64,000 nucleotides of DNA from Trichopria drosophilae (taxonomy: Eukaryota; Arthropoda; Insecta; Hymenoptera; Diapriidae), in NCBI GenBank assembly GCA_030407085.1, contig CM059584.1, forward strand, positions 63,999,501-64,063,500, in the 5' to 3' direction. The notes under the pieces were generated by a model. That model worked only from the letters and a program-made list of their open reading frames with translations. It did no database searches and was not told the DNA's origin. The first letter of the stretch is position 1. Every line of letters starts with the position of its first letter. The position numbers and the translations under genes are program-made. Of this stretch, positions 27,691 through 55,267 are shown one piece after another.

Positions 27691-27726
27691 ATGCTGGATC
27701 AGCCCTGCAAGTGTTCTCTCTCAACA

Positions 27727-27730
<4 letters not shown>

Positions 27731-27765
<35 letters not shown>
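27731..27765. repeat. (TG)n microsatellite
   Basis: About 17 TG units inside the MULE. Confidence 0.95.
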
Positions 27766-27766
<1 letters not shown>

Positions 27767-27905
27767 ATCTGCATAAGTGTAAAATACAATGCAATAAAGA
27801 TTTTCAAAAAATGTTAAAAATTGTAATTTGTTTATTCTGATCTTTTAGTTTTTTGTTTATTTCGAGACCGATAAAAGGTTATAATTAATTTGTTTTATGA
27901 ATAAA

Positions 27906-27943
<38 letters not shown>

Positions 27944-28049
27944 ACATTTACAGAAGTAAGCTTTAAGCTTATTTGCTGAATTTTACAATTTTAAATTGCA
28001 CATGCTATAAAGAAATTTAAGTATATATATACCTATGTAAGTAACAGTC

Positions 28050-28465
28050 TTAAAGTGTTCTCATATAACCATCTAAACGATTCTTAAATATATTCACAGA
28101 CGTAGAGTTTATCACGAGTTCTGGCAAGGCATTCCAGTCATTTACAACTCGATTAGCCAACACATTCTTAAATGGGTTCTTCTTGAACACGCTACACCGT
28201 AGCTTTAGCCTATGACTCCGTAAGTGAAGATTTTGCGACCTCTTGAAAAATCCTGGAGTGGTGACATGGTAATATCCAGTTAAATACTTATATGTCTCAA
28301 TAAGGTCTCCTCTTCTTCTTCGATGTTCCAACGTATCTAAGTGTAAAGCTTCTATTCGATCCTTGTATCTTAGATTTCGTAAGCCTGTCGGTATCTTTGT
28401 TATTCGTCGCTGAACTTTTTCCAGTAGTTTAATGTCTGCCTCGAAATAGGGAGACCATACTACGT
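28050..28465 (-). pseudogene. LINE C-terminal domain after RT
   Basis: The minus-strand frame starts near VVWSPYFEADIKLLEKVQRR and continues with LRYKDRIEALHLDTLEHRR, RRGDLIETYKYLTGYY and VVNDWNALPELVINSTSV before the stop at 28050. This order (ALxLxxLExRRxRGDLIExYK..WNxLP) is typical of CR1/Jockey-like ORF2 tails. Confidence 0.75.
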
Positions 28466-28466
28466 T

Positions 28467-29036
28467 TCAAAATTCCAACATTGTGCTAATCCGTTTCCAA
28501 ATCTTCCATGCTTTAATTTTATCATGTATTGCCGATTTAACATTCATATTTATCCATGGCTTATCTTTACGAGCTACGGCTACTGATTTGGTTGAGGCTA
28601 CTTTCTCAATAATAGGATATACTTCCCTTTTGATATTATCCCGCAGTTCGACTACTTCGCCTGAGTATGATGTAGTCATTTTAGATAGTTCCGTAGTAAC
28701 TCTCTCCCATATTTTATCGCAATCTATATTCCTGTAATTTTTTTGGATCGAGGAAGTGTCTATTTTCGCCTTTCCCACTTCAATTTGTACACTAGCTATA
28801 ATACACACATGATCACTTGCTCCGATTGGTGCTAAATATTGTATATCTGTGATTAAATTGTCTTCATTTGTAAAAAGTAGGTCCAAACAAGACGGGTTTT
28901 GTTGTGTTCGCATTTGCGTGGGCTCGTTTATTTCCTGGAAATAACCACTATTTACATAAAAGTTTAAAAAATCCTGTTCTTGTATAGTGGACAACACTTT
29001 GAATACCGACCAATCAATTCCAGGGTAATTAAAGTT
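28467..29036 (-). pseudogene. LINE endonuclease (APE-type), C-terminal half
   Basis: The frame opens at FNYPGIDW near 29030, followed by NEPTQMRTQQNPSCLDLLFT and APIGASDHVCIIASVQ, the last two conserved blocks of APE-type LINE endonucleases, including the SDH motif. A lysine-rich linker follows. The frame ends at 28467, where the RT should begin; instead the C-terminal domain follows directly. The N-terminal half of the endonuclease is also absent (5' truncation). Confidence 0.75.
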
Positions 29037-29044
29037 ATTAAATT

Positions 29045-30012
29045 TGTTTAATTATAGATCGTTAGAAGATTATAATTACTTTATTTTTCTTTAATCTAGT
29101 TTTTTGCTTAATTTCAGACCGTTAGAAGACTAGCATGATCTTATTTTTGGCGTCTAAAGTTATTTGCTCAATTTTAGACCGATAGAAGATTATAATGTAT
29201 TTACTTTTGACGCATAAAGTTTTTTGGCTAATTTGGGACCGGTAGAAGCAATGTACTTTTGACGTATAAAGTTTTTTGCATAATTTGAGACCGGGAGAAG
29301 CAATGTAATTTTGACGTATAAAGTTTTTTGCATAATTTGAGACCGGTAGAAGATTATAATCAATTTACTTTTGACGTATAAAGTTTTTTGCATAATTTGA
29401 GACCAGTAGAAGATTATAATATATTTACTTTTGACGTATAAAGTTTTTTGCATAATTTGAGACAGGAGGCAGATTATAATATATTTACTTTTGACGTATA
29501 AAGTTTTTTGCATAATTTGAAACCGGGAGAAGCAATGTAATTTTGACGTATAAAGTTTTTTGCATAATTTGGGACCGGTAGAAGATTATAATCAATTTAC
29601 TATTGACGTATAAAGTTTTTTGCATAATTTGAGACCCGGAGAAGCAATGTAATTTTGACGTTTTAAGTTTTTTGCATAATTTGGGAACGGTAGAAGATTA
29701 TAATCAATTTACTATTGACGTATAAAGTTTTTTGCATAATTTCAGACCAGTAGACGATTATAATATATTTACTTTTGACGTATAAAGTTTTTTGCATAAT
29801 TTGAGACCGGTAGAAGATTATAATCAATTTACTTTTGACGTATAAAGTTTTTTGCATAATTTGAGACCAGTAGAAGATTATAATATATTTACTTTTGACG
29901 TATAAAGTTTTTTGCGTAATTTGAGACCGAGAGAAGCAATTTACTTTTGACGTATAAAGTTTTTTGCATAATTTGAGACAGGTGGCAGATTATAATTTAT
30001 TTACTTTTGACG
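29045..30012 (-). repeat. 60-bp tandem array in the right MULE arm (about 16 units)
   Basis: These are the same units as at 25975-26690 in inverted orientation (GACGTATAAAGTTTTTTGCA; ATAATTTGAGACCGGTAGAAG). Copy number differs between the arms, and several units are 40 bp because the ATTATAATCAATTTAC part is missing. Confidence 0.95.
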
Positions 30013-30552
30013 CGTAAAATACATTTGTCGCCTTACATATTTCCTTAAAATATATTTTCTTACCATTTAACAGTCCAGGAATCTACTGGCGACAATCTCA
30101 GAAGACCATTGATTAAATTCCAAGGTATTTGTTACTTTTATGATATTTTATTCTTCATCTACCTGTAAATAATCACAAAATTCTGGAAAGAACCGTATCC
30201 TAATTTTGTACCTATATAGCATAATTATTACGACAATAAATAAATATACTTATCTAATAGTCTTAATTTTCTTCTTTTTCTCTTCCTTTTCACTTACGTA
30301 AAGCAACTTTGATTTAAAAAAGTGGAAACATTTGTAAAAAAATAAATATAACCTACTAGTTATGCTTTCAAAAATAGCACGCACGCACGGATAGACCTAA
30401 ATCGTAAATGTGTGTGTGTGGGGAACGGTGCACTGATACCCTCTTTAGGGTAAAATACGAACTCGTTCGAAACGCGCGCCATGAACCTAAAAACACTTGA
30501 TGGGCATGCGTTTTTCATTTCTGTCCGGGCCCGGGCAAACTTACCCGTTCTC

Positions 30553-30608
30553 ACTGGACTCGACTGACTTCGGACTCCGGAGTCCACCGAGCGCCTTGAT
30601 CGACGGCG
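30553..30608 (-). repeat. 3' LTR of the Gypsy element, middle piece
   Basis: A 56-bp LTR piece lies between the two large DNA transposons (contains CGACTGACTTCGGACTCC, matching 52236-52255). It begins with the MULE duplication ACTGGACT and ends with the Transib-like duplication CGGCG. Confidence 0.75.
30604..30608. other. Left 5-bp target duplication CGGCG
   Basis: CGGCG directly precedes the CACAGTG terminus and is repeated after the right terminus (45805-45809). GC-rich 5-bp duplications are typical of Transib and RAG transposition. Confidence 0.85.
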
Positions 30609-31420
30609 CACAGTGACCTATTCGGAAATATTATGAAAATTTTTTTCTGTAAACCTAATATCTCCAGAAGGAAACGACCAAATTGAATGGAACTAGGATG
30701 AAATTAAAGATAATTTATTATAGAAGAAAGGAAAACTATGCAGAAATGTCAATAAAAACCTTACAAGAGTCAAAAAGAATGTAAACATAAACACATTAAT
30801 CCGTTCCGGCTTGGTGGCTACTATAGTAGCGACTGGAAGTGAGTTGAACACTGTTTAAAGTCAAAAATACTGCATTTCGGGGGTTTTTGGGATCGCTGAT
30901 TACGAATATCAACGCAGATTTAAAAAATTCAATATGGCGGATTCAATATGGCCGCCCAAAAATGTAAAAAATTATGTGAGCGAGATGAAACTGGGTATTC
31001 TGGGGTGTTTGGGATCGCTGATTACGAATCTCAACTTAGATTTAAAGAATTCAATATGGTGGATTCAACATGGCCGTCCAAAAATGTAAAAAATTATGTG
31101 AGCGAGATGAAACTGGGTATTCTGGGGTGTTTGGGATCGTTGATTACGAATCTCAACTTAGATTTAAAGAATTCAATATGGCGGATTCAACATGGCCGTC
31201 CAAAAATGTAAAAAATTATGTGAGCGAGATGAAACTGGGTATTCATTATTTCAAATTTTGTGTGAGAATAGTAGGAAACTTCTATTCATTATAAGACATT
31301 CATGAATGTTTCCTACAACAAAAAACACACATTTTTACTGTTAACTGCTATTCAATAGCCCTTGATGACAAGACAAACTCGAATAACTTATTAGAAACAA
31401 CTTTTGATGAATCATTTTCT
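30609..31420 (+). repeat. Left TIR of the Transib-like element
   Basis: The outer about 280 bp are unique sequence starting CACAGTG. Then come three 123-bp units (near 30891, 31014 and 31137) containing GATCGCTGATTACGAATCTC and ATGGCCGTCCAAAAATGT. An inner about 160 bp (GGAAACTTCTATTC..TTTTACTGTTAACTGC) is mirrored at 44740-44880. A related fourth unit lies just outside, at about 31430-31510. Short open frames in the units are repeat artefacts. Confidence 0.85.
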
Positions 31421-32059
31421 CCAGAAAATATCTTTTGGGATTGCTGATTATGAATCTCAACTCAGATTTTAAACATTCAATTTGGCCGTCCAAATATGCA
31501 AAAAATTATCTCATCATGGGCAGCACCAACCTGCAGAAATTAATATAACAATATTTAACTAACTCAGTTCGCCTAGAAACTACCTTTACGTGTTGATTTT
31601 GCTAAAACAATTAAAAATGTTTAATATATTAAATAGCCCCAGATGAATGCACAAATAAGACTAAATGAAACTAAAAATCGTCTTCAGTATCACTGTCTCG
31701 CTGAGGTTCAATATTTTGAATATACATCTATATGCTACAATAATGTAGTGGGTGTTATTATATTAATAAGCTTAAGAATAATGTTATTAATAACCAAATG
31801 TACGAAATCCTGCGTATAAAGAAAGTATGTACATCTAATTTGTGAATTTAAGTTTGAATTTCTCTGAAATATACCAGATGAGCAGGTTAATACAATTCAG
31901 CGGTGGGAGTTTGTTTATTATGCGCAATGAGTTTACATTTTGCGACATGAACGCAATTTTCAACTTACAATCGCCATATGTTACTTTTGTAACTTATGCT
32001 ACTTCATCTCGTTGTATGGTCTTCTACGAATAGTTCTCCAGTTTATATCGTTTGACAAA
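31421..32059. other. AT-rich spacer inside the Transib-like element
   Basis: One more 123-bp unit (31430-31510), then no recognised feature. Confidence 0.4.
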
Positions 32060-32137
32060 GAGTCATATTTTCTCAAGTGAATCACCAAAAATCAACTACT
32101 TGATTTTTAGGTTTCTTTTTGCAGATTCTTAGAGAGT
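32060..32137. repeat. Outer left arm around the Penelope-like relic
   Basis: TTCTCAAGTGAATCACCAAA and GTTTCTTTTTGCAGATTCTT are mirrored at 37126-37195. The arm continues at 33061 after a MITE insertion. Confidence 0.65.
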
Positions 32138-32139
32138 TA

Positions 32140-33060
32140 TATGTTACAATGAATACCCTAAATTAATTTTAAAAAATTTTAATTTCTGAAAAAGTAATAA
32201 AAAACCGCGAAAAAAAATTCAAGATCAAGCGATATCTTTTCAGATCCGATTGGATCTAATGAGATCATATTTGATCTGGGTTTTGACCACATCTGCAGAG
32301 ATCTTGTAATTTTTATATCAAATTAGATCTAATCAGATATAACAAGATGTCATGTTAGATATTGTCTGATCTTGTCAATGATCTGATTAGATCTGAAGAA
32401 GATCTGATGAGATCTGAATAAGATCCTATTTGATCCAGTAATATCTGTGCAGATGTGGTGGCCATAACTCAGATCTGATTTGATCTGAACTTTATTTTCT
32501 CGGGAAATGAATTTTTGCAAGATTACTGTTTAGAAAGCTATTCCTCAGAAGAGTCGATAAAAAGTAATGAAATTTGGTATATATATTTACAGATGGAAAC
32601 AAAGTAAAGTATTAAAAACAAAAATCTGAAAAACCAATAATTAATTATAAAAAATTAAATTTGCAATAAAAAATTGAATTTTTTCAATTATTGAATTAAA
32701 ATGTAGTATTTGAAATTCATTTTCTTAAAAACCGCCAAATTTCGGACAAAAATGCAAACAACAAAAAATACTTAGAAGTAATCAGAGAATATAATACATT
32801 TTTTTAGAATTTTAAAATTTTAATTTAAAAAAATTTTTTTTTTAAAATAATTTATTAATGATTGGTTTTTCAGAATTTTGTTTCTACTGCTGTGTTTTGT
32901 ATTGATCTGTGAATATGTCTACCAAATTTAACTAATTTTTATCGATTCATTCCTGAGAAATTGTCTTTTAAACACCCGGTCGTACAAAAATTCAATTGTT
33001 CATAACTTTTTCAGAAATTAAAATTTGTTAAAAATATTTTAGGGTATTAATTTTTACATA
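32140..33060. mobile_element. 921-bp MITE with TA duplication
   Basis: The ends TATGTTACAATGAATACCCT and its imperfect complement (to 33060) are inverted over about 60 bp (shared TTTTAATTTCTGAAAAAGT). Comparison with the uninterrupted arm at 37100-37195 shows that the element interrupts CTTAG..GTTAAG..ACGTACC and leaves TA on both sides. This supports a Tc1/mariner-type non-autonomous element. No coding frame. Confidence 0.7.
32226..32500. repeat. GATC-dense foldback segment
   Basis: Sixteen GATC tetramers occur in about 260 bp, mostly as AGATCTGAT or GATCTGATTAGATCT variants, against about one expected. The segment is also a loose inverted repeat: CCACATCTGCAGAGAT near 32290 and its complement near 32450. 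Confidence 0.8.
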
Positions 33061-33443
33061 TAAGATAAACGTACCGATGAGGGGATATGTACCCCTTTGC
33101 TGGATAGACTAAGCGATTTTCGTTTGTTCTCTAAGCATGCATTAGGTTGTCCAGCTACACTGAGGAAAAAAATGAACGTGCACGCTCACCGGACAAACGA
33201 TAGTCTCCGCGTATGAGCGTTGCAATACTGCATACATAAGAACGCGGTGATGAGCGGCAACGGTAGGGGTACTATTCTACTACGCGGCCGCGAATATTGC
33301 GAGCGTACGTTCAGTGGTAGCGGTCCAGTATCGCCAACGATACTCACGGAGTTCCGTGGCAGGCATACTGGCCGCACATCGATGAACAAATCCCGAGCGT
33401 GCAGAAGCATATATAGTATAGTGTATTTTAAATTGACTTGGGT
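33061..33443 (+). repeat. Left inverted arm (Penelope-associated)
   Basis: The segment AACGTACCGAT..GTGCAGAAGCATATATAGTA is mirrored at 36765-37115 with some substitutions and one extra block on the right side. A shorter third copy of its end (GTGCAGAAGCATATATAGTA region) lies inverted near 35430-35460. Confidence 0.8.
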
Positions 33444-33592
33444 TAGATTTATATCTTTATTATATTTCATTTTGCTACATTTTTAAAACAAATTTTTTTT
33501 CTGTAATATTTTTGTTTATAACATGTATAAATGAATGTAATGTTTTATTTTTATATTTTTTGTTTAATTTTGTACATATTACAGATTATTTT

Positions 33593-33624
33593 CTGATGAG
33601 GACCTACAAATAAAGGTTGAAACG
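33593..33624 (+). ncRNA. Hammerhead-ribozyme-like core
   Basis: CTGATGAG, a possible stem II (GACC pairing with GGTT across a 10-base loop), then GAAAC reproduce the conserved hammerhead core order CUGAUGA - stem II - GAAA. Minimal hammerheads of this layout are known from Penelope-like elements, and this lies between Penelope-associated arms. Stem III and the cleavage triplet could not be established, so chance is possible. Confidence 0.3.
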
Positions 33625-33629
33625 TTATT

Positions 33630-34290
33630 ATTATTTTTTTATTGTATTTGAACATCGTAGTATTTTTTCCGTTAAACCAAGAAACATTTATTAAAACGTT
33701 TTCACTTATGAAACAAATGGACGGATAAGAAGAATTTCAATCAATTTCATATAGCATGTAATTGAAGAAAGTGCCGATAAAAACTATAACATATCCACTG
33801 TTTGATGGCTTAAATCTAACGATACATGAAAAGTTAAAAGTTCCAGAGATATACCTATATACAATTATAGATAATATTGGGTAAAAGTTAAATATTTAAA
33901 TTAAAACTTAACTACATTCAGTTAAAAGATAACGATCTAATGAGTCATTAAGTTAAATTAATATTAAATAATTTTCTAACTTCCAACTTAACTTTCAAAT
34001 TTTTAATTTCTTTTTAACTTTTACCCATTCGACGCTTCCTACGAAGAATGTAACATTTCAGTTTTCCCTATTTGAAATAACATAGGGAAAGCGCCAAATG
34101 TTACGTTCTTCGTAGGAGTCGTTGATATATAATTATATATAATTATATATAATTATTCATAATCCTTTATTTGACTATATATAACTATATATAATACACT
34201 TTTCGTAAATACAAAATGTACATATAATTACAAAAATCTATGTTCATTGTATGTACATATTATTCATTTTTGATATTATGCCTATTGTTA
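33630..34290. other. AT-rich spacer with a short hairpin
   Basis: Near 34030-34120 CGACGCTTCCTACGAAGAAT and its complement form an inverted pair, followed by ATATATAATTATATATAATT simple repeats. No gene. Confidence 0.4.
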
Positions 34291-34292
34291 TA

Positions 34293-35039
34293 CAGGGTCA
34301 TCGAAAAGTATCGGACCCCCCTAATATCTTCAGTTAGAATGCACTTAGGAGAAAATGTGCAATAGCAAAGTTGTATGGTTTCAAGCGGGGAGTAAGATGA
34401 TGACCTTGACTTTGACCTTGACCATGTCCTTCAAGGTCATTTCAAGGTCAATCTTATTTTTTTAAATAGAACCCCCTACATTTTATTGCATATTCTTATA
34501 GCTTATCTCGAGAGCTTTCCAAAACACTATAATAAAATATTTTTTTATTAAGTACTTTTTGAGTTATAAAGGTTTGAAGTTAACAATTTTTTGACACAAA
34601 ATGTAGAATATCTTGTAAAATATTATTTAGTTTTCAGTAATCATAACCTTAATACTTTTGTGCGCGGAATAATGAGACCAATTAATTGGTTTAAAGAAAA
34701 TACATTAATCGGATCCCCCTAATATTTTCAGTAAGAATGCATTTTGGAAAAACTTCAAACCTTTATAACTCAAAAAGTACTTAATAAAAAAATATTTTAT
34801 TATAGTGTTTTGGAAAGCTCTCGAGATAAGCTATAAGAATATGCAATAAAATGTAGGTGGTTCTATTTAAAAAAATAAGATTGACCTTGAAATGACCTTG
34901 AAGGACATGGTCAAGGTCAAAGTCAAGGTCATCATCTTACTCCCCGCTTGAAACCATACAACTTTGCTATTGGACATTTTCTCCTAAGTGCATTCTAACT
35001 GAAGATATTAGGGGGGTCCGATACTTTTCGATGACCCTG
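34293..35039. mobile_element. 747-bp mariner-type snapback MITE
   Basis: It starts CAGGGTCATCGAAAAGTATC, ends with the complement, and is flanked by TA on both sides. The two arms pair over about 300 bp each (GACCTTGACTTTGACCTTGA; TCTCGAGAGCTTTCCAAAAC) with very few differences, leaving a central loop of about 130 bp. CAGGGT-type ends and TA duplication are typical of Tc1/mariner derivatives. Confidence 0.85.
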
Positions 35040-35041
35040 TA

Positions 35042-35870
35042 TAATATAATAGAATAAAACAAGACATTCTGCAACTTTTACTGAGTACATTTGTACTAAA
35101 TTCATACCATGAACTCACTTCTGTATTGATATACTATAGCTTACGGGTCTACACTTTTTTTTTAACTTTGGGGGCCAATTTTCGTATTGTGTAACCAAAT
35201 ATTTCCAAATTCCACCATGCCTATCTTGTTCGAAATTTAATAAGCTTTAAAAGTAAAAAAGTTTCATTAAAATCGGTAGTAAAATGTGACCTACGGAACT
35301 CGATGAACGAAAATTAGTCTAACCATTGTACTGTTTGTCCACGGCGAACCTCCCTCCTCCTGCCAGCATCCACCCACTAGCCCCTTCCCCCCTGGCAGCA
35401 TCCTTTGATGGGACAAAACAGTCCTGGTAATACACTATACTATATATGCTTCTGCACATAATAAAGATATAAATCTAACCCGAGTCAAATATTATTTTCA
35501 AAGTTTAAAAAGAAAAAATGCAAGTTATAATATTATAAAAATCTTCTTATCTTTAAAATCTTATAGTGAAATGTGTCAAAAAAATATAAAAATAGTCTGT
35601 TGTATAATTTCTCGTCAATAAACCTATAATAAATTAAAACAAATTATGAGTAAAAAAAACTCAATAAGAAGATTTAAAATATTAAAATTAGATTGTACTT
35701 ATTACTGTATATGCATTGTACACTATACGAATAAATAAACGACATTGAACACGATATTTGACTTAACAAGAAAAACCTCGGAGATTCACAAATATCAATA
35801 TAAACTAATACAAGTGTATTTATGTATACAATAATATGACAGTTTAAATTTAAATAAAATGAATACAATA
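35042..35870. other. Spacer, partly Penelope-derived
   Basis: 35430-35500 repeats, inverted, parts of 33400-33470. The 3' UTR of the Penelope-like gene probably lies at 35680-35870. No other feature. Confidence 0.4.
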
Positions 35871-36764
35871 TTAAATTAATGGAAAATATGTATCAGGAAG
35901 ATAAGATTTTTCAAAACGAATGTTTACAGCATTTTTATTGGATTTAATAAAAAAGTTTTCCGTGTGTCTACGTTTATTAGAATTGTGTTCAGTAGCTAAA
36001 ATTTTGATTTTATCATGATCAAAATCATGTCCTATATTAATTCTATGTATAGTTAAGCCAGTATAATTTTCAACTTTAGAGTAAATATTTCTTTTATGTT
36101 CCAGAATTCTATTTTTAAGTAATCTCCCTGTTTGTCCGATATAAACTCTATTACAAAATTTACAATTAATTTGATAAACATCATTACGTTGGAAAGTATT
36201 TAATTTATCTTTAAAGGGTTTTATACCTCCTATATTTACATAAGCGGGTTTATGAACTATTCTAACATTCTGATTTGAAAAAATCTTTTTAATTTTTTCA
36301 GATACCCCTTTAACATATGGTATACTAACTGTCTTTAAAAATTGATTTTCATTGTGAAGGTTATACGAATTATATAATTTATGTACACGTTTTTTAACAA
36401 TATCATTTATGATATAATCAGGATAACCATTATCCCTTAAGATCTGTTTAGCAATTTTGATGTTTTTTCCTCTAAATTTTGGATCACAAAGTCAAATCGC
36501 TCTATCCAAAATACCACATGCAGTACCAAATAACATAAAGAATGGTTAGATTGAAAATTAAAATATCTACCAGAAAAAGTTTTTTTATGTTACCAATGGG
36601 TTGATAATTTACCATTATTATTTATAATTGCAATATCTAAAAAATTTAATTGGTTATTACATTTATTTTCTTTAAACTATTAAAAATAGGAAGAATATTA
36701 CTAATAAAATTAATAGGAATACTAGTAAAAATATCGTCCATATATCTATAATAAAAATGTAATT
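35871..36764 (-). pseudogene. Penelope-like element: RT end and GIY-YIG endonuclease
   Basis: On the minus strand the piece opens with the RT active site YRYMDDIF (about 36725-36750). A frameshift leads to NQLNFLDIAIINNNGKLSTH and SGRYFNF, then GILDRAI, an in-frame stop, and DPKFRGKNIKIAKQILRDNG. From about 36460 a frame of about 200 codons is open to the stop at 35871: IPYVKGVSEKIKKIF, then VYQINCKFCNRVYIGQTG (CxxC plus GIY-YIG), RILEHKRN, GHDFD and a catalytic-type Glu in TENFFIKSN. This RT plus C-terminal GIY-YIG order defines Penelope-like elements. The 5' part, including most RT motifs, is missing. Confidence 0.8.
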
Positions 36765-37195
36765 TAAAATACACTGTACTATATATGCTTCTGCACGCTC
36801 GGGATTTGTTCGGTACTCGCTACGGCACGCGTGTCGCTCAGTATTACATCGATGAGCGGCCAGTATGCCTGTCACGGAACTCCGTGAGTATCGTTGGCGA
36901 TACTGGACCCTACCACTGATCGTACGCTCGCAATATTCGCGGCCGCGTATTAGAATAGTATGCCTACCGTTGCCGCTCATCACCGCGTTCTTATGTATGC
37001 AGTATTGCAACGCTCATACGCGGAGACTATCGTTTGTCCGGTGAGCGTGCACGTTCATTTTTTCTCAGTGTATAGCATCGTTTTACTAATCATCCAGCTA
37101 TCGGTACGTTTACCTTAACCCGCTAAGAATCTGCAAAAAGGAACCTCAAAATCAACTAGTTTATTTTTGGTGGCCCACTTGAGAAAATTTGACTA
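36765..37195 (-). repeat. Right inverted arm (Penelope-associated)
   Basis: This is the mirror of 33061-33443 (36765-37115) and of 32060-32137 (37126-37195). The RT fragment abuts it directly at 36764. Uninterrupted, it serves as the reference for the MITE insertion in the left arm. Confidence 0.75.
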
Positions 37196-39190
37196 AAAAA
37201 AATTATGCAAGGGGTATAATATCATTATGGTAAATATCGACACGAAAGTCGTCTTCATTGCGAGGATTGAATTGGCTTTAATATTTGTAATATTGTTATG
37301 AAATCGTAATTTGCAAAATGCAAATCCCGCGTCTAATTTAAAAATCGTATTTTATCTCCCGCATGTTTGAAATCAAACTTCTCACTATCTTTTGTTTCGA
37401 TAATCATTTGTTTTCAATTGCTAAGATACAGAAACATCCATTAATGTAAAGAACATTTTTTTGTGTATTTTGTGAAATTAAAAGCAGCTCAAGAAATCGA
37501 TGGGCATCTGAACCTTGATTGAAGGTAAGTTTTGTCGTCGATGTTGAGGTTATTTTTATGATATACTTTTATAATTTATCAGTAATGTATTCAGTGAATG
37601 TTAGATTTGCACATATGTATTCCTTTACAATGTTTTTTTTTGTTTTGTGGAAAATCCGCATTGCCAAATTAACAATGTTTCCTCCATCGTCCATCACATT
37701 AGGTTCTCGGTATATCCTAACCTCCACTTGACTTTGTTTACATTTTGAGGTTAGGATATCCTGAAACCCTGATACTCCGAAAACCTGACGTGATTGGTAA
37801 AATTGGGCAACGGATTAGTTTTTCATGACTCAACATTTATAAGAACCACTATCACTGATTACAGTTACTCCCACGCGTTTTTTATAGTCCTGCGTATTCA
37901 ATGAAATTAATGATACTACAAAACATCTTTTAATGTAAATATTTTTTTTATATTCCTCACGTATGATATTTTTTCAATTACTTTCATTTTTATCGTAAAA
38001 TACTGGTACAGAGTGGGGTGAAAAAGCCATCTAGATTTTATATTACAATTCATCATCCACTTTTAATATAAAATCCATTAGGTACTATTCAACTGTTCAT
38101 TCTAGTTTCATTCATTTGAATTTTTAGTAGCGTAGTTTTAACGGTAATATTTACTATTAACCTGCCCTGCGAAACATATGTCAGTGAATATTTTAAAACT
38201 ATTTCGACTCATTCAGAAGCAATAACTGTTGATTAAGGATAAATTGTATTTAACACGTATTACATATTTAACACGTGTTACATATTTTTTAATTGTATCT
38301 TTAATTGCATATTATTATTAGCTTTTTGCAAAAATGATCATAGTGGGTTAAAAATGCAAACACTGTCAATTCATTTTCATGTGTGTTGTAATAACTTCTA
38401 ACCTTCTCATCTGCCAAAACGTCTCATAATTACCCTGCAAGACCTGTTCGATAGATCCAAATAGAGAATTTATTGTCTACGGTTTGAGTGGGTTCCTAAA
38501 ATAGTCCTAAAATTAACCAAAAAAACGGATTTTGGATTGATGGAATGTGTTTTTCGTCAATTTTAAGAAATTCACCCCCCCCCCCTCCGCGTGCTCAATT
38601 TTTATTGAAACGCAAGGTATAGAGAGGCAAATTCTTCGTCTTTTCAAGCTCTACAACTGTTATCGACGACATTTGGCTAGCTATTTATCGAAATGGGCTA
38701 ATCGCTAAAAACCTCAAGAAAAGGCAATTTTTCCCCTTTATGGGGGCATAACTGCTGAAATATTCATCCCAGCTGTATCGTCGAAGGTTGATGATTGAAT
38801 ATTAAATTGTTTACTTTATACATATATTGATGTATTAACTTCTGTTCTTACAGAAGTCAGAGATTGTAACAGATAGACTTTCAAACACTTTGATTAGTAT
38901 TTTATGTGTCTTGATTGAGACCAAAACACGAAGTTACAAGATACTTTCAGATTTTCTGGAAATACCCATTAGCATCAATAAATTTTGGGCGTTTATTTAT
39001 AAGTAAATAAAAAACACAATTTGAAAAAACGAAGTAATGTAGATTAATTATTGGCAACCAAGCGTATTTTATTACAAGTAAGTACCTACTTTAACTTATT
39101 TTTGCCGGATACTTTAAGGCCAGGAAATCTCAGATCTTCGTGCACATGATGATATTATAACATAAAAAGTTCATGAATGGCTGCTTCACC
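37196..39190. other. AT-rich spacer
   Basis: A short inverted pair, TATCCTAACCTC and GAGGTTAGGATA, occurs at about 37715-37760, and a C-run at about 38574-38585. No coding region is supported; the open frame 37519-37731 is AT-driven and hydrophobic. Confidence 0.4.
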
Positions 39191-39194
39191 CTAC

Positions 39195-42135
39195 TGTACA
39201 GGTACTAAAAGCTGGCCGAGCATCTATGGCAAAACCGACCCAAACTAATGCAAACGTTTGTTGCTCAATTGTTGCTCAAAAGTTGCCATAATCCCGTATT
39301 TGTTGCTCCCATATTTAAAAAAAAAAAGCAGGTTTGGCCAGCTTGTATAAAAGCTAGCCAAACATAGCTCAAAACATAAAAAAAACCTATCCTACAGAAA
39401 AAACAAGTACACAGCTAATTGTTGCTCATTTGTTGCTAAAAGATGACCCACAAAATATAGGGTTAACTCAAATGGATTCCTAAATTTAAAAAAAATAACT
39501 AGGTTTGGCTGACTTGCGTAGAAGCTGGCCAAACATAACAAATAAACGGAAATTACTCATACAATTGAAAAATCAAGCACACCCATAATTGTTGCTCAAT
39601 TGTTGCTAAAACATTAAGTAATGAAGATTTAATTACCTAAACCCCGTACACCTTAAAATAACATATGCAATATTTTCGAATATCATTCAAAACACGTTGG
39701 TGAACAGAGTGCAATAATAAACAAAATCAAAGGTAGAGACTACTATTCACCACTTCTCCATCGATTCTTACTGCTTTTAGGGACACAAATAAACAATTCT
39801 GGCAAAGTCCCATCCGCTTTGGCTGGTAAAATAAAGTTATACTATTTTCAAAAACACGAAATTCGTAAAACCTGGTCACTAAACAGGGTGGACTCATGGC
39901 TCGTTTAGACGTTGGCAACAATTATCCAGCAATTGTTGCTCGCTTTCTACTGTTTTTAGAAACATGAATAAACAATTCTGGCAAGGTTTCGTCCGGTTTG
40001 GCTGGTAAAATAAAAAGTTATACTAATTTCCAAAACCTGATATTCGTAAAATCTGGTCACTAAACAGGGTGGACTCATGGCTCTTTTAGACATTGGCAAC
40101 AATTTTCCAGCGATTGTGGCTCGCTTCCTACTGTTTTTAGAGACATAAATAAACAATTCTGGCAAGCAACCATCCGGTTTGGCTATTAAAATAAAAAGTT
40201 ATACTATTTTTAAAAACATGAAATTCGTAAAACCTGGTCACTAAACAGGGTGGACTCATGGCTCATTTAGACGTTTGCAACAATTATCCAGCAATTGTTG
40301 CTCGCTTTCTAATGTTTTTGGGATGTCAATAAACAATTCTGGCAAGGTTTCGTCCGGTTTGGCTGGTAAAATTAAAAGTTATACTAATTTTAAAAACGTG
40401 AAATTCGTAAAACCTGGTCACTAAACAGGGTGGACTCATGGCTCATTTAGACGTTGGCAACAATTATCCAGCAATTGTTGCCCACTTCCTTCTGTTTTTA
40501 GAGACATGAATAAACAATTCTGGCAAGGTACCATCCGGTTTGGCTATTAAAATAAAAAGTTATACTAATTTCAAAAACATGAAATTCGTAAAACCAGGTC
40601 ACTAAACAGGGTGGACTCATGGCTCATTTAGACGTTGGCAACAATTATCCAGCAATTGTTGCTCGCTTTCTAATGTTTTTGGGATGTCAATAAACAATTC
40701 TGGCAAGGTTTCGTCCGGTTTGGCTGGTAAAATTAAAAGTTATAATAATTTTAAAAACGTGAAATTCGTAAAACCTGGTCACTAAACAGGGTGGACTCAT
40801 GGCTCATTTAGACGTTGGCAACAATTATCCAGCAATTGTTGCTCACTTCCTTCTATTTTTAGGGATGTCAATAAACAATTCTGGCAAGGTTTTGTCCGGT
40901 TTGGCTATTAAAATAAAAAGTTAATATTAATTTCAAAAACATGAAATTCGTAAAACCTGGTTATTAAACAGGGCGGACTCATGGCTCGTTTAGACGTTGG
41001 CAACAATTATCCAGCAATTGTTGCTCACTTCCTTCTATTTTTAGGGATGTCAATAAACAATTCTGGCAAGGTTTCGTCCGGTTTGGCTATTAAAATAAAA
41101 AGTTATACTAATTTCAAAAACATGAAATTCGTAAAACCTGGTCACTAAACCGGGTGGACTCATGGCTCCATTACAAGGTGGCAACTATTATCCAACAATT
41201 GTTGCTAGATTCTAGTTGTTTTTAGGGATATAAATAAATCATTCTGACCTGAATAATTCCTGTCCTGCCATTAGTCCACCCTGCTTAGAGAGCTGATTTG
41301 ACGAATTTTCGTTATTCAAAATCGCATAACTTTTTATTTAACCAGCCAAACCGGACGGGACCTTGACAGGATTATTTATTTATGTCCCTAAAAACAGTCG
41401 GAATCGAGGAACAATTGCTGGATAATAGTTGCTACCTTCTAATGGTCCCATTAATCCACTTAGTATAGAGAGCTGATTTTACGAATTTTATATTATTCAA
41501 AATCGCATAACTTTTTATTTAACCAGCCAAACCGGACGGGACCTTGACAGGATTATTAATTTATGTCCCTAAAAACAGTCCGAATTAAGCAACAATTGCT
41601 GGATAATAGTTGCCACCTTCTAATGGACCCATTAATCCACTTACTATAGAGAGCTGATTTTACGAATTTTATATTATTCAAAATCGCATAACTTTTTATT
41701 TAACCAGCCAAACCGGACGGGACCTTAACAGGATTATTTATTTATGTCCCTAAAAACAGTAGGTATCGAGCAACAATTGCTGGATAATAGTCGCCAGCTT
41801 CTGAACGAGTCATTCATTAGTCCCCCCTACCTAAACCTACTTTTTTTTGTAAATATGGGAATCCATTTGACGAAACCCTATATTCTTTGAGTACTCTTTT
41901 ACCAACAAATGAGCAATGTACTTGTTTTTTTCTATAGGATAGGTTTTTTTTATATTTTGAGCTATGTTTGGCTAGCTTTTATACAAGCTGGCCAAACCTG
42001 CTTTTTTTTTTAAATATGAGAGCAACAAATACGGGATTAGGGCAACTTTTTAGCAACAATTGAGTAACATATGTTTGCATTAGTTTGGGTCGGTTTGGCC
42101 ATAGATGCTCGGCCAGCTTTTAGTACCTCTACAGT
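39195..42135. mobile_element. 2.9-kb foldback element with inverted satellite arrays
   Basis: The ends are inverted: GGTACTAAAAGCTGGCCGAG at the left and its complement near 42120 at the right. About 220 bp of each arm pair, including AAAGCTAGCCAAACATAGCTC and the AGCAACAATTG motif. Between them lie about eight plus-oriented units (39720-41260) and three inverted units (41270-41830) of a roughly 180-bp satellite. No coding frame. Confidence 0.8.
39720..41830. repeat. 180-bp satellite, 8 direct and 3 inverted units
   Basis: The unit contains GTCCGGTTTGGCTGGTAAAA, CACTAAACAGGGTGGACTCA and CAACAATTATCCAGCAATTG. From about 41270 the same parts appear complemented (AACCAGCCAAACCGGACGGG). Two sub-types differ by TGGTAAAAT or TATTAAAAT. 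Confidence 0.9.
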
Positions 42136-42344
42136 AGTACTGTACTCAATAAATTTGTTCATTGCAATTTTTCATGGAATTCACACTCTTGAAGGTTCAA
42201 GTACAATGATAATAATTAATTTGTAGATATTATTAATTAGCGTGCGTTGATTTTCAAGTCCACTCGTTAGTTAATCGTTTTGGTAATAGCTATCATACTG
42301 GTTTAGCGATTAGAATAAAAAGTTTCTGTATAATAATTTTTAGA

Positions 42345-44720
42345 ATGTTAAAACGAAAACAAAATGTCCAGAAAACTGGTGGTCGTCCAAGAAAACTACC
42401 ACGAGTAAGACCTGGCAGTGGCAGAAAACGAAAACCGAATGCTACTGTATCGAAAAAAACCATGTACATGCGGGCAGATGAAGTTTTGCGATTCGTGGAA
42501 AATAACGTTGAAATTTTAAAGTTAGCCATACGTTTATACGAAAAGAGGATGACTCGTGAGGCTTGTAAGGAAGAACATGCGCCTTTAGTTCACATAAACC
42601 ATGTCGCAGATAATGACGAGGATGAAGGGAACGATGAAGATGAAGAGATCCACGAAGTTGAAATGAACAGAAGTGGACGTTCTGAAGAAAGGACCTTAGC
42701 CTTTTACATAGAAAATAATTATAGTAGAAGCAAATATAAAGCACTAGTTACCGATTCTCGTGAAAATAACTGTCCGTATCCGTGCTACGAGAAAGTTCGA
42801 AAAGCTATGCTGCAATGCGAAGTTGAAGCTTTAAAATATAAAGTGTCTGAAACAGAAATAATGATACCTTTACAGGACATCTTAAATAAAACCGCCGAAA
42901 GATTATGCGACGCGGTTGCTGCTGAATGGAATCAATCGCACTTAAATCGTCTTACATTATATATCACTTTGAGTTTCGATAGTTCCTCAGGACACCTTAA
43001 TCCCCACCAGAAAAAAGAAGTCGAGAATGGAAGGAATTTAAATCCACAAAATTCACTTTTTGTAAGCAGTTTCATTGTTATGAAATTGGAAAGCAATTCA
43101 CCAAATTACGCATGGTTGAATCCCACACCACAAAGTGTACGATTTTGCCGCCCTCTGCGACTTGCTCTAGAAAAGGAGGATGTTCCGGCAACAAACAGGG
43201 AATATAACCGATTAATGAAAGAAATTGAAGATCTTGTTCCGTACTCTTTTATATTGTCGAACGGAAAAACTGTCAACGTTACTATGGACGTCTCTATGAC
43301 AATGTTTGACGGAAAATGCGTGAATACGATCACCAACAATAAATCAACCTCCACGTGTCCAATGTGTAAAATAACATCGCATAAATTCGACAAAGCAAAT
43401 ATTACTTTTACTGCGAATGCAGAAGCTCTAAAATTAGGACTTGGTCTATTACATTGCACGATTAAGTGCTTCGAGCATCTTCTCCATATCTCCTACAAAA
43501 GTACTGTCAAAAAGTGGGACACTACTAAAGATATTAAAGGTACCCGCACAGAAAACATTAAATATCTGAAGATATACCCTGAAATATAAATTAATGCCTA
43601 TAATTAATAATCCATAATGTAATAATTCTCTAATTATATTTATCAATTTAAAAATATTCTCATCCATTATAATAAAATACACACAAAAATTTTCACATTC
43701 CGAGCGAGCGTTAGCGACTGAGGCAATAAAGCTAGTTGCAATAAATTCTCATTTTACTTTTTTTTTATATTTGCATATTTGTAGATAGTGTCCTCAATAA
43801 ATTAATTTGAAAGAACAACATTTATAATCAGTTAATATATCAATTCAAGCAGCAGACACTATTATAATAATATAACGATTTTAATTATTTTAGACGAATT
43901 TTTGATAAAGCAAGCCGAAATTAGAAAGAAACTTTATGATGCATTTGGCATTCGAGTTGATCAAGTGGTACAAGGTCACGGAACATCAAACACAGGAAAT
44001 TTGGCGAGAAAATGTTTCCAACAACCCGAACTGTTTGCAGAATGTCTAGGAATTCCATCTGATTTTGTATCAAGAATTGCAACAATTTTATCTTTATTTA
44101 AGTGCAAACAAGATCTTGATTTGGATAATTTTGAAATGTTTTGTCATCAAACGTACAACTTACATTATGAGCTATTTCCGTGGGCGCGTATGAAACCCAC
44201 TGTTCACAAACTTTTATACCATGGGTGTGAAATAGCCCGACAGTTTCATTTGCCTATGGCATATTATGCTGAAGATGCTCAAGAGGCATGTCACAAGTAT
44301 TTTCGAGACAATATGCGCAGCCATGCACGTCAGATAAATGGAGAAGCCAGACTTTTAGATGTTTTTAATCGCGCACTTTATATCTCAGATCCTAAAATAT
44401 CCCTACTGTTACTAAGTAAGAGAATTAAAAAGGAGAAGAAAAATGAGAATACAACAGAAATAATGAAGCAATTTATTACACAAACGTTAGTATTCTTGCC
44501 TATATCTACATCCTTATACCTGCAAAGTTATTATTTGTTGGTTTTTTTATTAGTATTAATACTCTATTAATAATAATGCTAACACTCCATAATAATACTA
44601 ATGATAATAATAATAAATTGTTACAGCAACAATATAGAGGCAGAGAGAGATGACGATACTGAAAGCGAGAATAGTGATGATTCATTTCCAGAAGAAACAT
44701 CAAGTGAAGAAGAACTTTAA
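42345..44720 (+). CDS. RAG1/Transib-like transposase, three exons
   Basis: The model is exon 1 42345-43539, exon 2 43894-44485 and exon 3 44627-44720, with GT..AG introns, matching phases and no internal stop: 626 residues. The N-terminus is basic (residues 1-40), followed by an acidic patch (89-106). The core has SFDSSSGH (Asp212), WLNPTPQSVRFCRPLRLALE (257-276), MTMFDGKCVN (Asp322), a CPMC pair (338-341), LGLLHCTIKCFEHLLHISYK (366-385), GHGTSNTGNLARK (426-438), MKPTVHKLLYHGCEI (498-512) and AEDAQEACHKYFRDNMRSHA (524-543, candidate catalytic Glu). These follow RAG1 in order: CDG..G, KPLCLML, ICTLC, LHCDIG, HKTLAH..EII, SEGNESGNK..ARQ. RAG1 has Asp708 in LHCDIG; here the aligned residue is Thr372, so the second Asp may be Asp322 or elsewhere. 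The C-terminus is strongly acidic. The gene ends where the right TIR begins. It would bind the CACAGTG ends and cut in the nucleus. The CDS start could lie further upstream if an exon was missed. Confidence 0.85.
43540..43893 (+). other. Intron 1 of the RAG1-like transposase
   Basis: A GTACCC donor and a TTATTTTAG acceptor join a phase-1 codon. Reading through instead would add about 15 codons and stop at 43589, within the conserved domain. The intron is AT-rich (354 bp). Confidence 0.75.
44486..44626 (+). other. Intron 2 of the RAG1-like transposase
   Basis: A GTTAGT donor and a TTGTTACAG acceptor, 141 bp, joining a phase-2 codon and leading to a short acidic last exon. Without splicing the frame ends with an unrelated hydrophobic tail at 44570. 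Confidence 0.7.
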
Positions 44721-45804
44721 ATAATTATAAAAGTTGTTTATGATAAGTTATTCGAGTTTGTCTTGTCATCGGGGGCTATTGAATAGCTGTTAACAGTAAA
44801 AATGTGTGTTTTTTGTTGTAGGAAACATTCATGCATGTCTCACAACGTACAAAGGTTTCCTACTATTCTCACACTAAATTTTTTATATATTCCAGGAACT
44901 TGTATAGTTACCTATTGAATACCTTCAATATATTTAGGTCCTTAAAGCTGAAAAGAGCCAAAGTCATCAAAACCAAACCAATGTGTCTATGTATGTTTTT
45001 GACTAGGGGTTTGGTAGCTTTAGGTTAAGCTGGCAAATCCTAGCGATTTTTCTTTTAAATATAGGAGCAACAAAATCAGCAATAGAGCAACATATTAGCA
45101 AGAAAAAAGCAACAATTATTTAACATGGTTTGGTTTGGTTTTGATAATTTGGCTTTGCATTGGCAGCTTTAAGGACCTAATATATTTTGTAGTATACTTT
45201 TAATCACAATAGTACGTAAGTTTCTAGGGTAAGTTAGTTCATTTTTAAAATCGGAGTTGAGATTCGTCATCAGCAACCTCAAAACCCCCTAATTATCCAG
45301 TTTCATCTCGCTCACATAATTTTTTACATTTTTGGACGGCCATATTGAATCCGCCATATTGAATTTTTTAAATCTGAGTTGAGATGCATAATCAGCGATC
45401 CCAAAAACCCCCGAATACCCACTTTCATCTCGCTCACATAATTTTTTACATTTTTGAACGGCCATATTAAATCCGCCATATTGAATTTTTAAAATCTGCG
45501 TAGATATTTGTAATCAGCGATTCCAAAAACCCCCGAAATGCAGTATTTTTTACTTTAAACAGTGTTCAACTCACTTCCAGTCGCTACTATAGTAGCCACC
45601 AAGCCGGAACGGATTAATGTGTTTATGTTTACATTCTTTTTGACTCTTGTAAGGTTTTTATTGACATTTCTGCATAGTTTTCCTTTCTTCTATAATAAAT
45701 TATCTTTAATTTTGTCCTAGTTCCATTCAATTTGGTCGTTTCCTTCTGGAGATATTAGGTTTACAGAAAAAAATTTTCATAATATTTCCGAATAGGTCAC
45801 TGTG
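44715..45804 (-). repeat. Right TIR of the Transib-like element
   Basis: In minus sense it repeats the left TIR: CACAGTG outer block, three 123-bp units (about 45250-45530) and the inner block (44740-44880). An insertion of about 350 bp (about 44881-45235), including a 241-bp MITE, separates inner block and units; without it the arm length equals the left one. Confidence 0.85.
44937..45177. mobile_element. 241-bp MITE in the right TIR
   Basis: GGTCCTTAAAGCTG at the left and CAGCTTTAAGGACC at the right form a TIR flanked by TA. Internal GAGCAACAAAATCAGCAATA and AGCAACAATTAT resemble the arms of the 39-42 kb foldback element, suggesting a shared family. Confidence 0.75.
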
Positions 45805-45889
45805 CGGCGCTCGGGCCATTCGGGGCCGTTCCTATAACACGATGTCGTCACGAAAACGCACGAAACGGTTCTAAATGGCCGCACCTCCA
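45805..45889 (-). repeat. 3' LTR of the Gypsy element, last piece
   Basis: It begins with the CGGCG duplication, continues CTCGGGCCATTCGGGGCCGT (compare 52280-52305) and CGAAAACGCACGAAACGGTT, and ends CACCTCCA, the complement of the TGGAGG that opens the LTR in minus sense. Confidence 0.7.
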
Positions 45890-46137: not shown

Positions 46138-46518
46138 TCACTGCAGAGCATTGCCTTTGTCCACTCGCCCCGCTACGAATGCGGCGGCCTCCGTGCGTAA
46201 CTGCCCTAGGAGAGTGGCCAGTACCACGGCCTGATGGAGTCGGTCGACTCCACTGTCTCTCGACTCATCTCGGCCCGGTTCGCTGATCGCGATGGTACTG
46301 ACGTCCCGTGTTAGCACGAAGTCCGCCTCTGATTCCGAGGGACTCGCTTCTCCGGTGGGTGAGGGTGACCTTGGCGGTGGTACGATAGGGTCCTCCCCAT
46401 CCCCATGTACGGGTGGAATCCACTCCCCTTCGTAGGGGGGACGTCTCACCCTGCTCGAATGACGGTGCGATCGATGCCTGTAACAAAAATCAAACTTCAT
46501 TAATTCTTGACGCGCCAA
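46138..46518 (-). pseudogene. Terminal ORF, paralogue of the window-start ORF
   Basis: About 126 codons: a basic start, Pro-rich PPRSPSPTGEASPSESE, and ATLLGQLRTEAAAFVAGRVD, which aligns with the end of the ORF at 3-608. A stop follows where the other copy has Trp, and similarity (SGLLPPLQRM) continues beyond it. The zinc knuckle of the other copy is not seen here. Confidence 0.65.
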
Positions 46519-46709
46519 GACCCACCAGGTGCAACGTACTGCTTAAACTCTGACACGTGTGTCTTTATTACCTTGCTGCCGCTCCCTCCTTCTAACTCGC
46601 ACACGATCGGAGAAATGACACGGATGATACGGAACGGCCCCTCGTAGCGCGGCACGAGTTTCGCGGCGAACCTATCGGCTGCCGACGACAGAACGTGACT
46701 TCTGCGCAA
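46500..46709 (-). pseudogene. Integrase C-terminal domain
   Basis: FAAKLVPRYEGPFRIIRVIS followed by VIKTHVSEFKQY is the Gypsy integrase C-terminal barrel (GPF/Y type). It is shifted in frame from the integrase core. Confidence 0.7.
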
Positions 46710-46758
46710 AACTAAATTGCCTACATTATACTGAATGTCACGTCTGCCACGATTATAA

Positions 46759-47709
46759 CTACGACGCTGGCGCTCGCACGCTCGATCTTATCACCGACGA
46801 ACAAGGTCCCGGAGGGCGCCTAACCGCTTCATGCAGTCTTGCCAGTTTTCTGGCTCGATGCGCAGGATAGGGTCTTCCCCCTCCAATCTTCGCCTTAAAC
46901 TCTTCACAGGTGGACTGACGACCGTAATTCAGAAAGGCTGGTGACACCTTTGTACTTTCGTGGACGGCCGTATTAATTGCACACCTGAATTCGGGCAAGT
47001 TCAGATCCCAATCACGGTGATCAGCTCCGACGAATGTCCGAATCGTCGTCTTCAGCGTTCGTATCGTTCTCTCCACCGGGTTGGCCTGAGGGTGGTACGG
47101 CAGGATAGTTGTCGCCTGCACGCCGTACCCATGGAGCATCTTGTCCATGACGTCATTCTGGAACTCTTTTCCATTATCGGTGAGCAAGTACTCGGGAGTT
47201 TCCCATCGGAACAAGACGAGATCCTCGAAGGTTCGTGCAATATTTTTGCCGCCGGCCGTCCCTAGCGCTTTAGGTTCCATCCACAGCGTGAGCATTTCGG
47301 TGAAAACCAACACATACCGATTTTGTCCCCGGCTTGGCAGAAATGGGCCCATGATATCGGCGGATACAACCGACCATGGTTTCTCGACCACTCGATGTCC
47401 CATTAGCCCGGGTGGACCGCTGTGCGATGGTTTCTGCATCTGACATGCGCTGCATCCGCGCACGAACTGACGTACGTCGTAACGCATTCCGGGCCAGTAG
47501 TATTCCACTGCCAGACGACAATATGTCTTCTCTACGCCATAATATCCGGAGTGGGCCTCTTTATGTGCGCTTCCTAGTACCTCTTCTCGTACGCCTAGTG
47601 GTAGCACTGATTTCCAGCGGTTCTCTCCGCTTGTCACCGGATCCAATAACGGATCCGACCGTGTATGATACAACGTATATTCTCCGTTTTCCGCTCTGGA
47701 AACGCTCAC
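46759..47709 (-). pseudogene. Gypsy integrase core
   Basis: An open frame of 316 codons. The zinc-binding region (HKEAHSGYYG..CSACQMQK) is complete and the catalytic triad is visible: SADIMGPF, LLTDNGKEFQ and NPVERTIR. This is the best conserved part of the element. The frame leaves the family near residue 275 into a Pro/Arg tail through a frameshift. Confidence 0.85.
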
Positions 47710-48289
47710 GGTGAGCCTCGACTAATTTTCTTCTCCGTTCATACCAGTCGTCCCTGTCGGAGGCAATTCTCATGGCACAAACGTCTTCTTCGACTCTCCG
47801 GGACATGGTGTAATGCTCCTTTCCTGTGCCGGATCGTGAGGTTACAGCCTTGCAACTCCAAAGCCCACCTCGCGAGTCGCCCCGTCGGGTCTTTTGGTTA
47901 TGGAGACACCTGAGACTATTATGGTCTGTTATAACCTCGAATGGGTATCCTTCCAAGTATTCCCGGAGCTTCTTCACGATCCACACCACCGCCAGGCACT
48001 CCTTCTCCGTCGTCGAATAGTTCTTCTCGGCAGCGGCGAGGGTGCCGAGAAGAACTATTCGACGACTTAGATAAACTATAGGATGCTCTCCGTCATCCTG
48101 GGCTTGCGTTAATATGGCGCCGAGTGCATAGTCGCTCGCGTCCGTTTGTAACACGGACGCGCGGCTGAAATCGGGCCGTCCTAGCACTGGAGCCTCCGTC
48201 AGCGATGTTTTGAGCGACTGGAAGGCCTCCTCGTGTTCTTCACCCCACTCCCACGGCTGATTCTTTCTCGTCAGCTTCGTGAGGGGCAA
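47700..48289 (-). pseudogene. Gypsy RT thumb and RNase H
   Basis: Starts with the RT thumb/connection (PWEWGEEHEEAFQSLKTSL), then RNase H: LQTDASDYALGAILTQ (first Asp), TTEKECLAVVW (Glu) and ITDHNSL (Asp). The frame shifts near 47880. A 24-bp perfect inverted repeat (48009-48032 with 48043-48066) within the coding part has replaced a few codons between YLSRR and AAEKNYSTTE. Confidence 0.8.
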
Positions 48290-48329
48290 TCGCTTCTCTG
48301 CCAGATTTGGAATGTCCGGTTATCCTCGC

Positions 48330-48500
48330 TGTATGGCCTGTGGCGCTTCGTATATTTCCCTGAAGGGGCAGAATGCAATCCCGATGCATATCGGCAATTC
48401 CTGGTTTGACAAATAACCGCGTGGCGCCCGTATCGCAAACTACTCGGGCTTTGACTCCGGCAATGACCAGGTCAAAATATAGTCTCCTGTTCCTGCTGCC
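48330..48500 (-). pseudogene. Gypsy protease
   Basis: Minus-strand YFDLVIAGVKARVVCDTGAT contains the retropepsin D-T-G motif, followed by RLFVKPG. The downstream RT is missing. Confidence 0.7.
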
Positions 48501-48599
48501 TCTTCCGGTAGTGGATTCTCTTCCTCGCTAACGAAACTTGTACTCATTGGCGCTGGCGGGATGCCCCATTTCTCCTTTACATATCGGAGTACCTCCCTC

Positions 48600-48900
48600 T
48601 CCGGGCATATTCCCGCTCCTCTCTTAGGGGCGCACTCGTTCTCCATCTGCAACGTGACAATGGGTCGGGTAGGCGAACTCATTCCCCGATCCGCGCGGCT
48701 CGTTTCTCGAGACCCTCGCTCCTGCTTCCATGCACTCGTTGCATTCTCGGCGAATCGTTCCGATTCGACCAGACCCGTAACACTGCGCGTGGCGCGCGAA
48801 ATGGCCCGTCCCGCCACAGGTGTAGAACGTTCTCTCTCTTGGTGCTCGCATCGGCCCCCACCCGTCCTTGCACGAAATGTGTCGGGGAGGACCGGGCATA
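48600..48900 (-). pseudogene. Gypsy nucleocapsid zinc-knuckle region
   Basis: FYTCGGTGHFARHAQC is a degenerate CCHC knuckle (first Cys changed and one residue added before the last Cys), with a second cysteine pair CNECMEAG. It lies between gag and protease, as expected for nucleocapsid. Confidence 0.65.
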
Positions 48901-49183
48901 ACGCAAGCGGCGGCTCAACGGGTCGACGTGGTCTTCCTCTTCTTCCGACTACTGGTGACGATGGCGGCGTCGTCGTTTTAGGCCTGCCCGACCGGACCGT
49001 CTGAGTCCGGGCGACCTTGGTCCCGGTCCTACCGGCTGATCGATCGGCACAGCGTCCAATCTGCGCTGGGGTTCGGTGGCGGACACTTCTTCGGAGTTCC
49101 TCATTTTTAGGTCTCTTCGCCGTTTCCTCCGCTCGTTGTTCTCGTTGCGACGAGCTCTTCGTCCGGTACTATCGGATGACGTT

Positions 49184-55124: not shown

Positions 55125-55262
55125 TGCATAGAGGTCGGTTCCAGGCCCATTTCACATGTATAAAGGTAGGTTCCAGGTCCGATGGTGCTTTCCAGGTCCG
55201 ACCTGGAAGGATTTCATGTCTAAGGGTCGTTTCCAGCCCCGGAAGTGGTACTTTCCAGGTCC
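55125..55262. repeat. Short GGTTCCAGGTCCG-type repeats
   Basis: Five related pieces (GGTTCCAGGCCCAT, GGTTCCAGGTCCGATGGT, CTTTCCAGGTCCGACCTGG, and others) lie just left of a MITE. Confidence 0.6.
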
Positions 55263-55267
55263 GTATA

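Follow-up and report, generated by a model that had tools for sequence, protein, structure and literature searches.

Among known transposons, Transib elements are the closest relatives of the V(D)J recombinase, the enzyme that assembles antibody genes. The Transib structures that we found in the Protein Data Bank (PDB) all belong to one enzyme, HzTransib from Helicoverpa zea (6PQN, 6PQR, 6PQX, 6PQY, 6PR5), whose element measures 3,518 bp according to a passage in PMC1852546. Autonomous Transibs are stated in a passage of PMC4411706 to be present typically in one or at most few copies per animal genome, and an excerpt of PMC6035795 reports a high Transib abundance in a wasp. Here, we analysed a 64,000-nucleotide stretch of the Trichopria drosophilae genome (contig CM059584.1, positions 63,999,501 to 64,063,500; referred to here as the window), in which positions 30609-45804 are a Transib DNA transposon, Transib proper. 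A previous reading, made from the letters alone (the sequence-only reading), had described a 15-kb RAG1/Transib-type transposon. Our data indicate that it is almost certainly an autonomous cut-and-paste Transib transposon, given its anatomy, homology, active-site residues, genomic dispersal, and the target duplications that flank it and five further complete elements. It carries a Transib, RAG-class transposase and is not a RAG1 or RAG-like (RAGL) element.

The sequence-only reading held that an apparently intact RAG-class transposase in an insect would be valuable for studying the origin of V(D)J recombination. That value is less unique than claimed, since HzTransib, whose structures are solved, already provides an active Transib from an insect. 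This kind of element is already known. What stands out, all of it within that kind, is the size, the conserved intron, the double AT-hook motif at the N-terminus, and how many and how diverse its relatives in one genome are. Such a clade, separate from HzTransib, extended by a DNA-binding-like N-terminus and rich in members within a single genome, would be a natural series in which to ask about end recognition and target choice before RAG. Among the literature titles listed for Transib with RAG1 or transposase, HzTransib, terminal inverted repeats (TIRs) and target duplications, Hymenoptera, AT-hooks and subterminal or satellite repeats, none concerned such a clade; an earlier description may exist.

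Ends and target duplication

The element spans 15,196 bp and starts and ends with the heptamer CACAGTG, inverted at the two termini (30609-30615 on the plus strand, 45798-45804 on the minus strand), as had been claimed. By itself the heptamer is unremarkable (5 occurrences in the window against 3.1 expected); the 15-base terminus CACAGTGACCTATTC has exact matches in the window at the two element ends only. The left TIR (30609-31172, plus) begins with CACAGTGACCTATTC, and the right TIR (45241-45804, minus) is its inverted copy. Over 564 bp, an ungapped comparison of the two gives 34 mismatches (94% identity). The first 90 bp are the same on both sides and include an A/T block (TIR positions 28-38). 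The outer 290 bp differ at four positions (91, 92, 254 and 283), close to the count of about three given before. Directly outside the TIRs lies the exact GC-rich 5-bp duplication CGGCG (30604-30608 and 45805-45809), which confirms this part of the sequence-only reading.

A 122-bp repeat occurs three times within the left TIR region (30876-31244, plus) and in approximately 2.4 copies on the right (45241-45537). Further inward, an inverted repeat at 31253-31417 (plus) pairs with 44719-44881 (minus; approximately 90%), which starts at the transposase stop codon. Units of approximately 121 bp, in arrays or single, also lie outside the element at 54474-54905, 19965-20049 and 20855-20989. They are 71-81% like the 122-bp repeat and represent either remnants of related elements or a repeat of the host that such elements acquired. 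A short inverted-ended insertion lies in the right TIR region (44934-45180) and shares sequence with 39299-39378.

The ends at 30609 and 45804 stand, and the 15-kb length does not describe the mobile unit. Since a 3,913-bp stretch (33158-37070) is missing from three sister copies, whose site there is whole, the mobile unit is approximately 11.3 kb. This insertion is private to the window copy among the four compared, is flanked by TA, has ends inverted over approximately 229 bp, and contains a GIY-YIG-like frame (35871-36491, minus). Nested in it is a 757-bp inverted-ended element (34288-35044; 294-bp arms, 99%) with TA beside each end. An inverted-ended stretch that holds a 181-bp tandem array (39200-42128) is present in the sister copies too, with differing lengths.

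The transposase gene

The transposase gene is on the plus strand in three exons (42345-43539, 43894-44485 and 44627-44720) with GT..AG introns, and gives 626 uninterrupted codons and a stop. Its protein matches HzTransib with a phmmer E-value of 2.8e-59, and a profile search reaches RAG1 at approximately 1e-9. Predicted structures of the exons also match HzTransib best and RAG1 second. A lack of profile or structural matches, which the sequence-only reading had named as refuting, did not occur. Exon 1 contains two AT-hook-like motifs, D212, D322, C338 and C341, while exon 2 contains H503, H508 and E529; the catalytic residues (D212/D322/E529, the DDE triad) and the zinc ligands (C338/C341/H503/H508) are thus all kept. 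In the RAG1-like motif order proposed previously, the first motif needs correction: it is FDSSSG and not CDG..G.

The three-exon, 626-residue model is open throughout, and the support for its parts differs. In 35 of 53 homologs the frame ends at most 60 residues past the Trp that aligns with W391, close to the exon-1 donor, with the K/Q/R-G motif there in 21 of the 35; in 17 of the 53 the frame runs on. The five nearest run-on relatives (P0001-P0004, P0013) align without a gap over the exon 1/2 junction. Since homolog frames stop near the exon-1 donor and run-on relatives align gapless, intron 1 has outside support. The exon-1 match also ends at residues 392-398 in two other families of the same genome. 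Exon 3, with an acidic tail and the stop, is predicted only from splice signals, an acidic composition and a nearly identical sequence in the sister copies. The last 30 residues include 14 D/E. Of the 14 homologs whose C-terminal motif lies near the end, 9 have at least 8 D/E and the other 5 have 1-6. One idea is that this tail may be the counterpart of the RAG2 acidic hinge.

Other copies in the genome

We searched the genome (936 Mb, 509 contigs; C1-C7 are contig labels) for other copies, a search set beforehand. With exon 1 as query, 104 of 991 candidates were scored and gave 115 matches, of which 17 are full-length (start at or before 10, end at or after 392) and stop-free; some matches are pieces of one locus, and whole loci may be more or fewer. 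This number of relatives departs from the one-or-few-copies statement in PMC4411706. For the outer 260 bp of the TIR, 40 matches were scored, and 10 of these reach 91-100%. Exact hits to the combined pattern CGNCG+CACAGTGACCTATTCGG number 7 genome-wide, each at an end of this Transib family. When up to 3 mismatches are allowed, the pattern has 15 matches against 0 for its reversed form, which exceeds chance.

Identical 5-bp CGNCG duplications flank six of the seven end pairs examined, and other copies share the ends of the window copy. The second outcome that the sequence-only reading had named as refuting, different ends or no 5-bp duplication in other copies, did not occur either. Besides the window copy (CGGCG), complete elements lie at C7:183400-193894 (10,495 bp, CGCCG) and C1:98523389-98532654 (9,266 bp, CGGCG), and those of related families lie at C5:52030912-52043849 (12,938 bp, CGCCG), C6:70934672-70951058 (16,387 bp, CGACG) and C4:49106263-49117625 (11,363 bp, CGACG). 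At the seventh pair, C2:122450828/122471837, the flanks mirror each other and there is no duplication. Beside unpaired ends the flanks read, for example, CGACG, TGGCG, GGGCG and CGCCG; on C1, the end at 95.1 Mb is truncated. The C5, C6 and C4 elements have the heptamers CACATAG and CACGGTG. Those on C5 and C6 encode related transposases (46% in exon 1, 56-59% in exon 2) whose matched stretches are stop-free. C4:49.1 and C4:53.4 show exon 2 alone, and four of the nine stretches compared show neither exon. Third codon positions are the most divergent in all six comparisons between families. The C6 element also holds frames (L039:3658-4939) that by eye resemble a Penelope-type reverse transcriptase and a GIY-YIG domain, similar in kind to the window frame at 35871-36491. 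Six of the exon-1 matches, at 31-32% on C1, C2 and C3, lie in stop-free frames of 528-717 amino acids, which suggests that this genome also hosts a second Transib branch that lacks introns.

The sequence-only reading called the insertion young because its TIRs are so alike. TIRs need not be identical at insertion, and their likeness is therefore no clock. Better evidence for recency comes from the three sister copies, which are 98.6-100% identical to the window copy in exons and 94.3-98.6% in introns.

The intact-looking transposase has no stop, and being intact does not equal being active. We asked whether the window copy may be a dead or dying one: a Transib by descent with an inactive protein, mobilised, if at all, by other copies. 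Beside D212, the window copy has Ser (S210) at a nearly invariant position where at least 90% of aligned rows and the three sister copies printed have Gly, a point in favour of a dead copy. The four near-identical relatives all have damaged genes (the C7 copy has one stop, that on C6 at 49.2 Mb has five, that at 95.1 Mb of C1 has a shifted frame, and that at 98.5 Mb of C1 lacks a 5' part and has one stop), and the 3.9-kb insertion fits the same picture. Against this, the window copy alone among the five is open, with 626 codons without stop or frameshift and all seven key residues kept. We regard a dead copy as a serious possibility, at somewhat under even chances. That the open frame, standing beside damaged sister copies, is a domesticated host gene between old transposon ends is extremely improbable, since ends, duplication and gene co-occur in several copies at different places.

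As an autonomous cut-and-paste Transib, the element would move as follows. The spliced 626-residue transposase should act as a dimer that binds both like TIRs at CACAGTG and probably also at the inner A/T block. The flanks would be nicked and hairpinned, as by HzTransib and RAG, and the excised unit would be joined 5 bp apart into a GC-rich CGNCG target, which would give the 5-bp duplication. The 3.9-kb element entered the approximately 11.3-kb mobile unit later. The steps of movement are predicted from homology with HzTransib and RAG, and what is observed of them is their products, the duplications and dispersed copies. The window copy may still be active.

Placement among Transib and RAG proteins

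In a tree of 16 rows, in which the BbRAG1L row is partial and long, the protein groups with five insect proteins (100/100), separate from HzTransib and not within RAG1L. These five are Transib-like proteins from Brassicogethes aeneus, Trichogramma kaykai, Eretmocerus hayati, Pseudolycoriella hygida and Trichomalopsis sarcophagae, known here as unnamed proteins only, with 39-51% identity to ours. These named species, a beetle, several wasps and a fungus gnat, are in line with an insect host. All four of the relatives that have an N-terminus also have N-terminal GRP/GRK motifs. The element is a member of a Transib clade that excludes HzTransib and shares an intron and the N-terminal double AT-hook motif.

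With HzTransib it shares the transposase core, TIRs and a 5-bp duplication. D126/D225/E436 of HzTransib align with D212/D322/E529 here, at 29.6% identity over 470 columns. The two differ in tree clade, in element length, in the duplicated target (GCTCG in HzTransib, CGGCG here), and in the N-terminal extension, which HzTransib does not have. A GC-rich 5-bp target is also given for RAG in part of PMC11844651, CGCCG in one structure.

We considered whether the element may be a RAGL transposon (RAGL/ProtoRAG/TransibSU) with a RAG1L whose RAG2L was lost or has gone unseen. It shares with RAG1 and RAG1L (BbRAGL/ProtoRAG) the fold and the DDE and zinc residues. The RAG1-type fold, the GC-rich 5-bp duplication and an AT-hook GGRPR as in RAG1 speak for this reading. 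Identity to BbRAG1L is 19.1% over 188 columns, compared to 32.2% to HzTransib over the same region, and an excerpt of PMC7204232 gives identity below 22% as what separates Transib from RAG1/RAG1L. Profile scores also place it with Transib. Unlike RAG1, the protein has no RAG1 non-core N-terminus, and by alignment it has Val where BbRAG1L has Met and RAG1 has R848. The CCGHC motif described in one source for the C-terminal tail of RAGL is absent, with no cysteine past SDPK, and the TIR is unlike the protostome RAGL consensus CACTWMCAAAC of the same description. Pfam found no Kelch or RAG2-like match in 20 of the 44 element frames of at least 55 amino acids, the transposase and the GIY-YIG frame, a search that small spliced exons could escape; no RAG2L gene was seen in the sister elements. 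A RAGL element with a lost or unseen RAG2L is therefore highly unlikely. We rejected RAG1/RAGL membership on identity, tail, TIR and the lack of a RAG2 among the frames covered. What we found is a Transib-branch transposase with DDE and zinc residues, a GC-rich 5-bp duplication, CAC... TIRs and, among the frames covered, a single gene instead of convergent RAG1L and RAG2L.

Unlike those of RAG, the TIRs are alike and show no 12/23 asymmetry. They fit the symmetric Transib class, for which a portion of PMC8355894 gives 20-22-bp spacers, and offer no basis for a 12/23 rule.

The N-terminal extension

The start of HzTransib falls opposite residues 110-112, so that the N-terminus with its two AT-hook-like motifs is extra. 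Such motifs are frequent in the clade. The first, GGRPRK, lies at residues 12-17, with G13, R14, P15 and K17 invariant in 20 rows, and model helices are predicted at residues 37-50 and 55-75. The N-terminal profile did not find the RAG1 nonamer-binding domain (NBD) in PDB. With hhalign, the N-terminus matches zebrafish RAG1 at a probability of 1.5%, and 2 of 100 shuffles were equally good. NBD homology is thus only suggestive.

A bolder reading is that these copies are a large, recently mobile radiation of approximately 9-16 kb intron-bearing Transibs in which the double AT-hook would be a true RAG1 NBD counterpart, acting on the TIR A/T block. We consider this doubtful, at perhaps a minor chance. 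If true, the two-part recognition of V(D)J recombination (heptamer and A-rich element) would be older than RAG2 capture.

Target site and surroundings

We rebuilt the empty site by fusing the left flank, with a single CGGCG retained, to the right flank, and matched it against the window. The junction is spanned by an element-free paralog at 52233-52357 (plus; 80% over 136 columns; junction pentamer CAGCG) and by a shorter match at 896-940 (82% over 45 columns; CGGCG). Among 200 random junctions, 2 had a spanning match elsewhere in the window. The target resembles a dispersed repeat and may be a long terminal repeat belonging to the Ty3/gypsy remains at 46759-48319.

Scanning the window with Rfam and for tRNAs gave nothing, and an IMG/VR scan gave 13 pattern matches with no relative among them. 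Ty3/gypsy retrotransposon remains with interrupted frames occupy 4284-8076 and 46138-50103, and their best matches are in ants (approximately 50%). An inverted pair of approximately 1.25 kb (92.5%) bounds 25416-30553. Each arm contains 60-bp tandem repeats, and a LINE-like (long interspersed nuclear element) frame lies between the arms; the right end of the pair is approximately 55 bp outside the Transib. A 1-kb near-perfect hairpin, with an 86% match to its own reverse complement, lies at 55253-56226.

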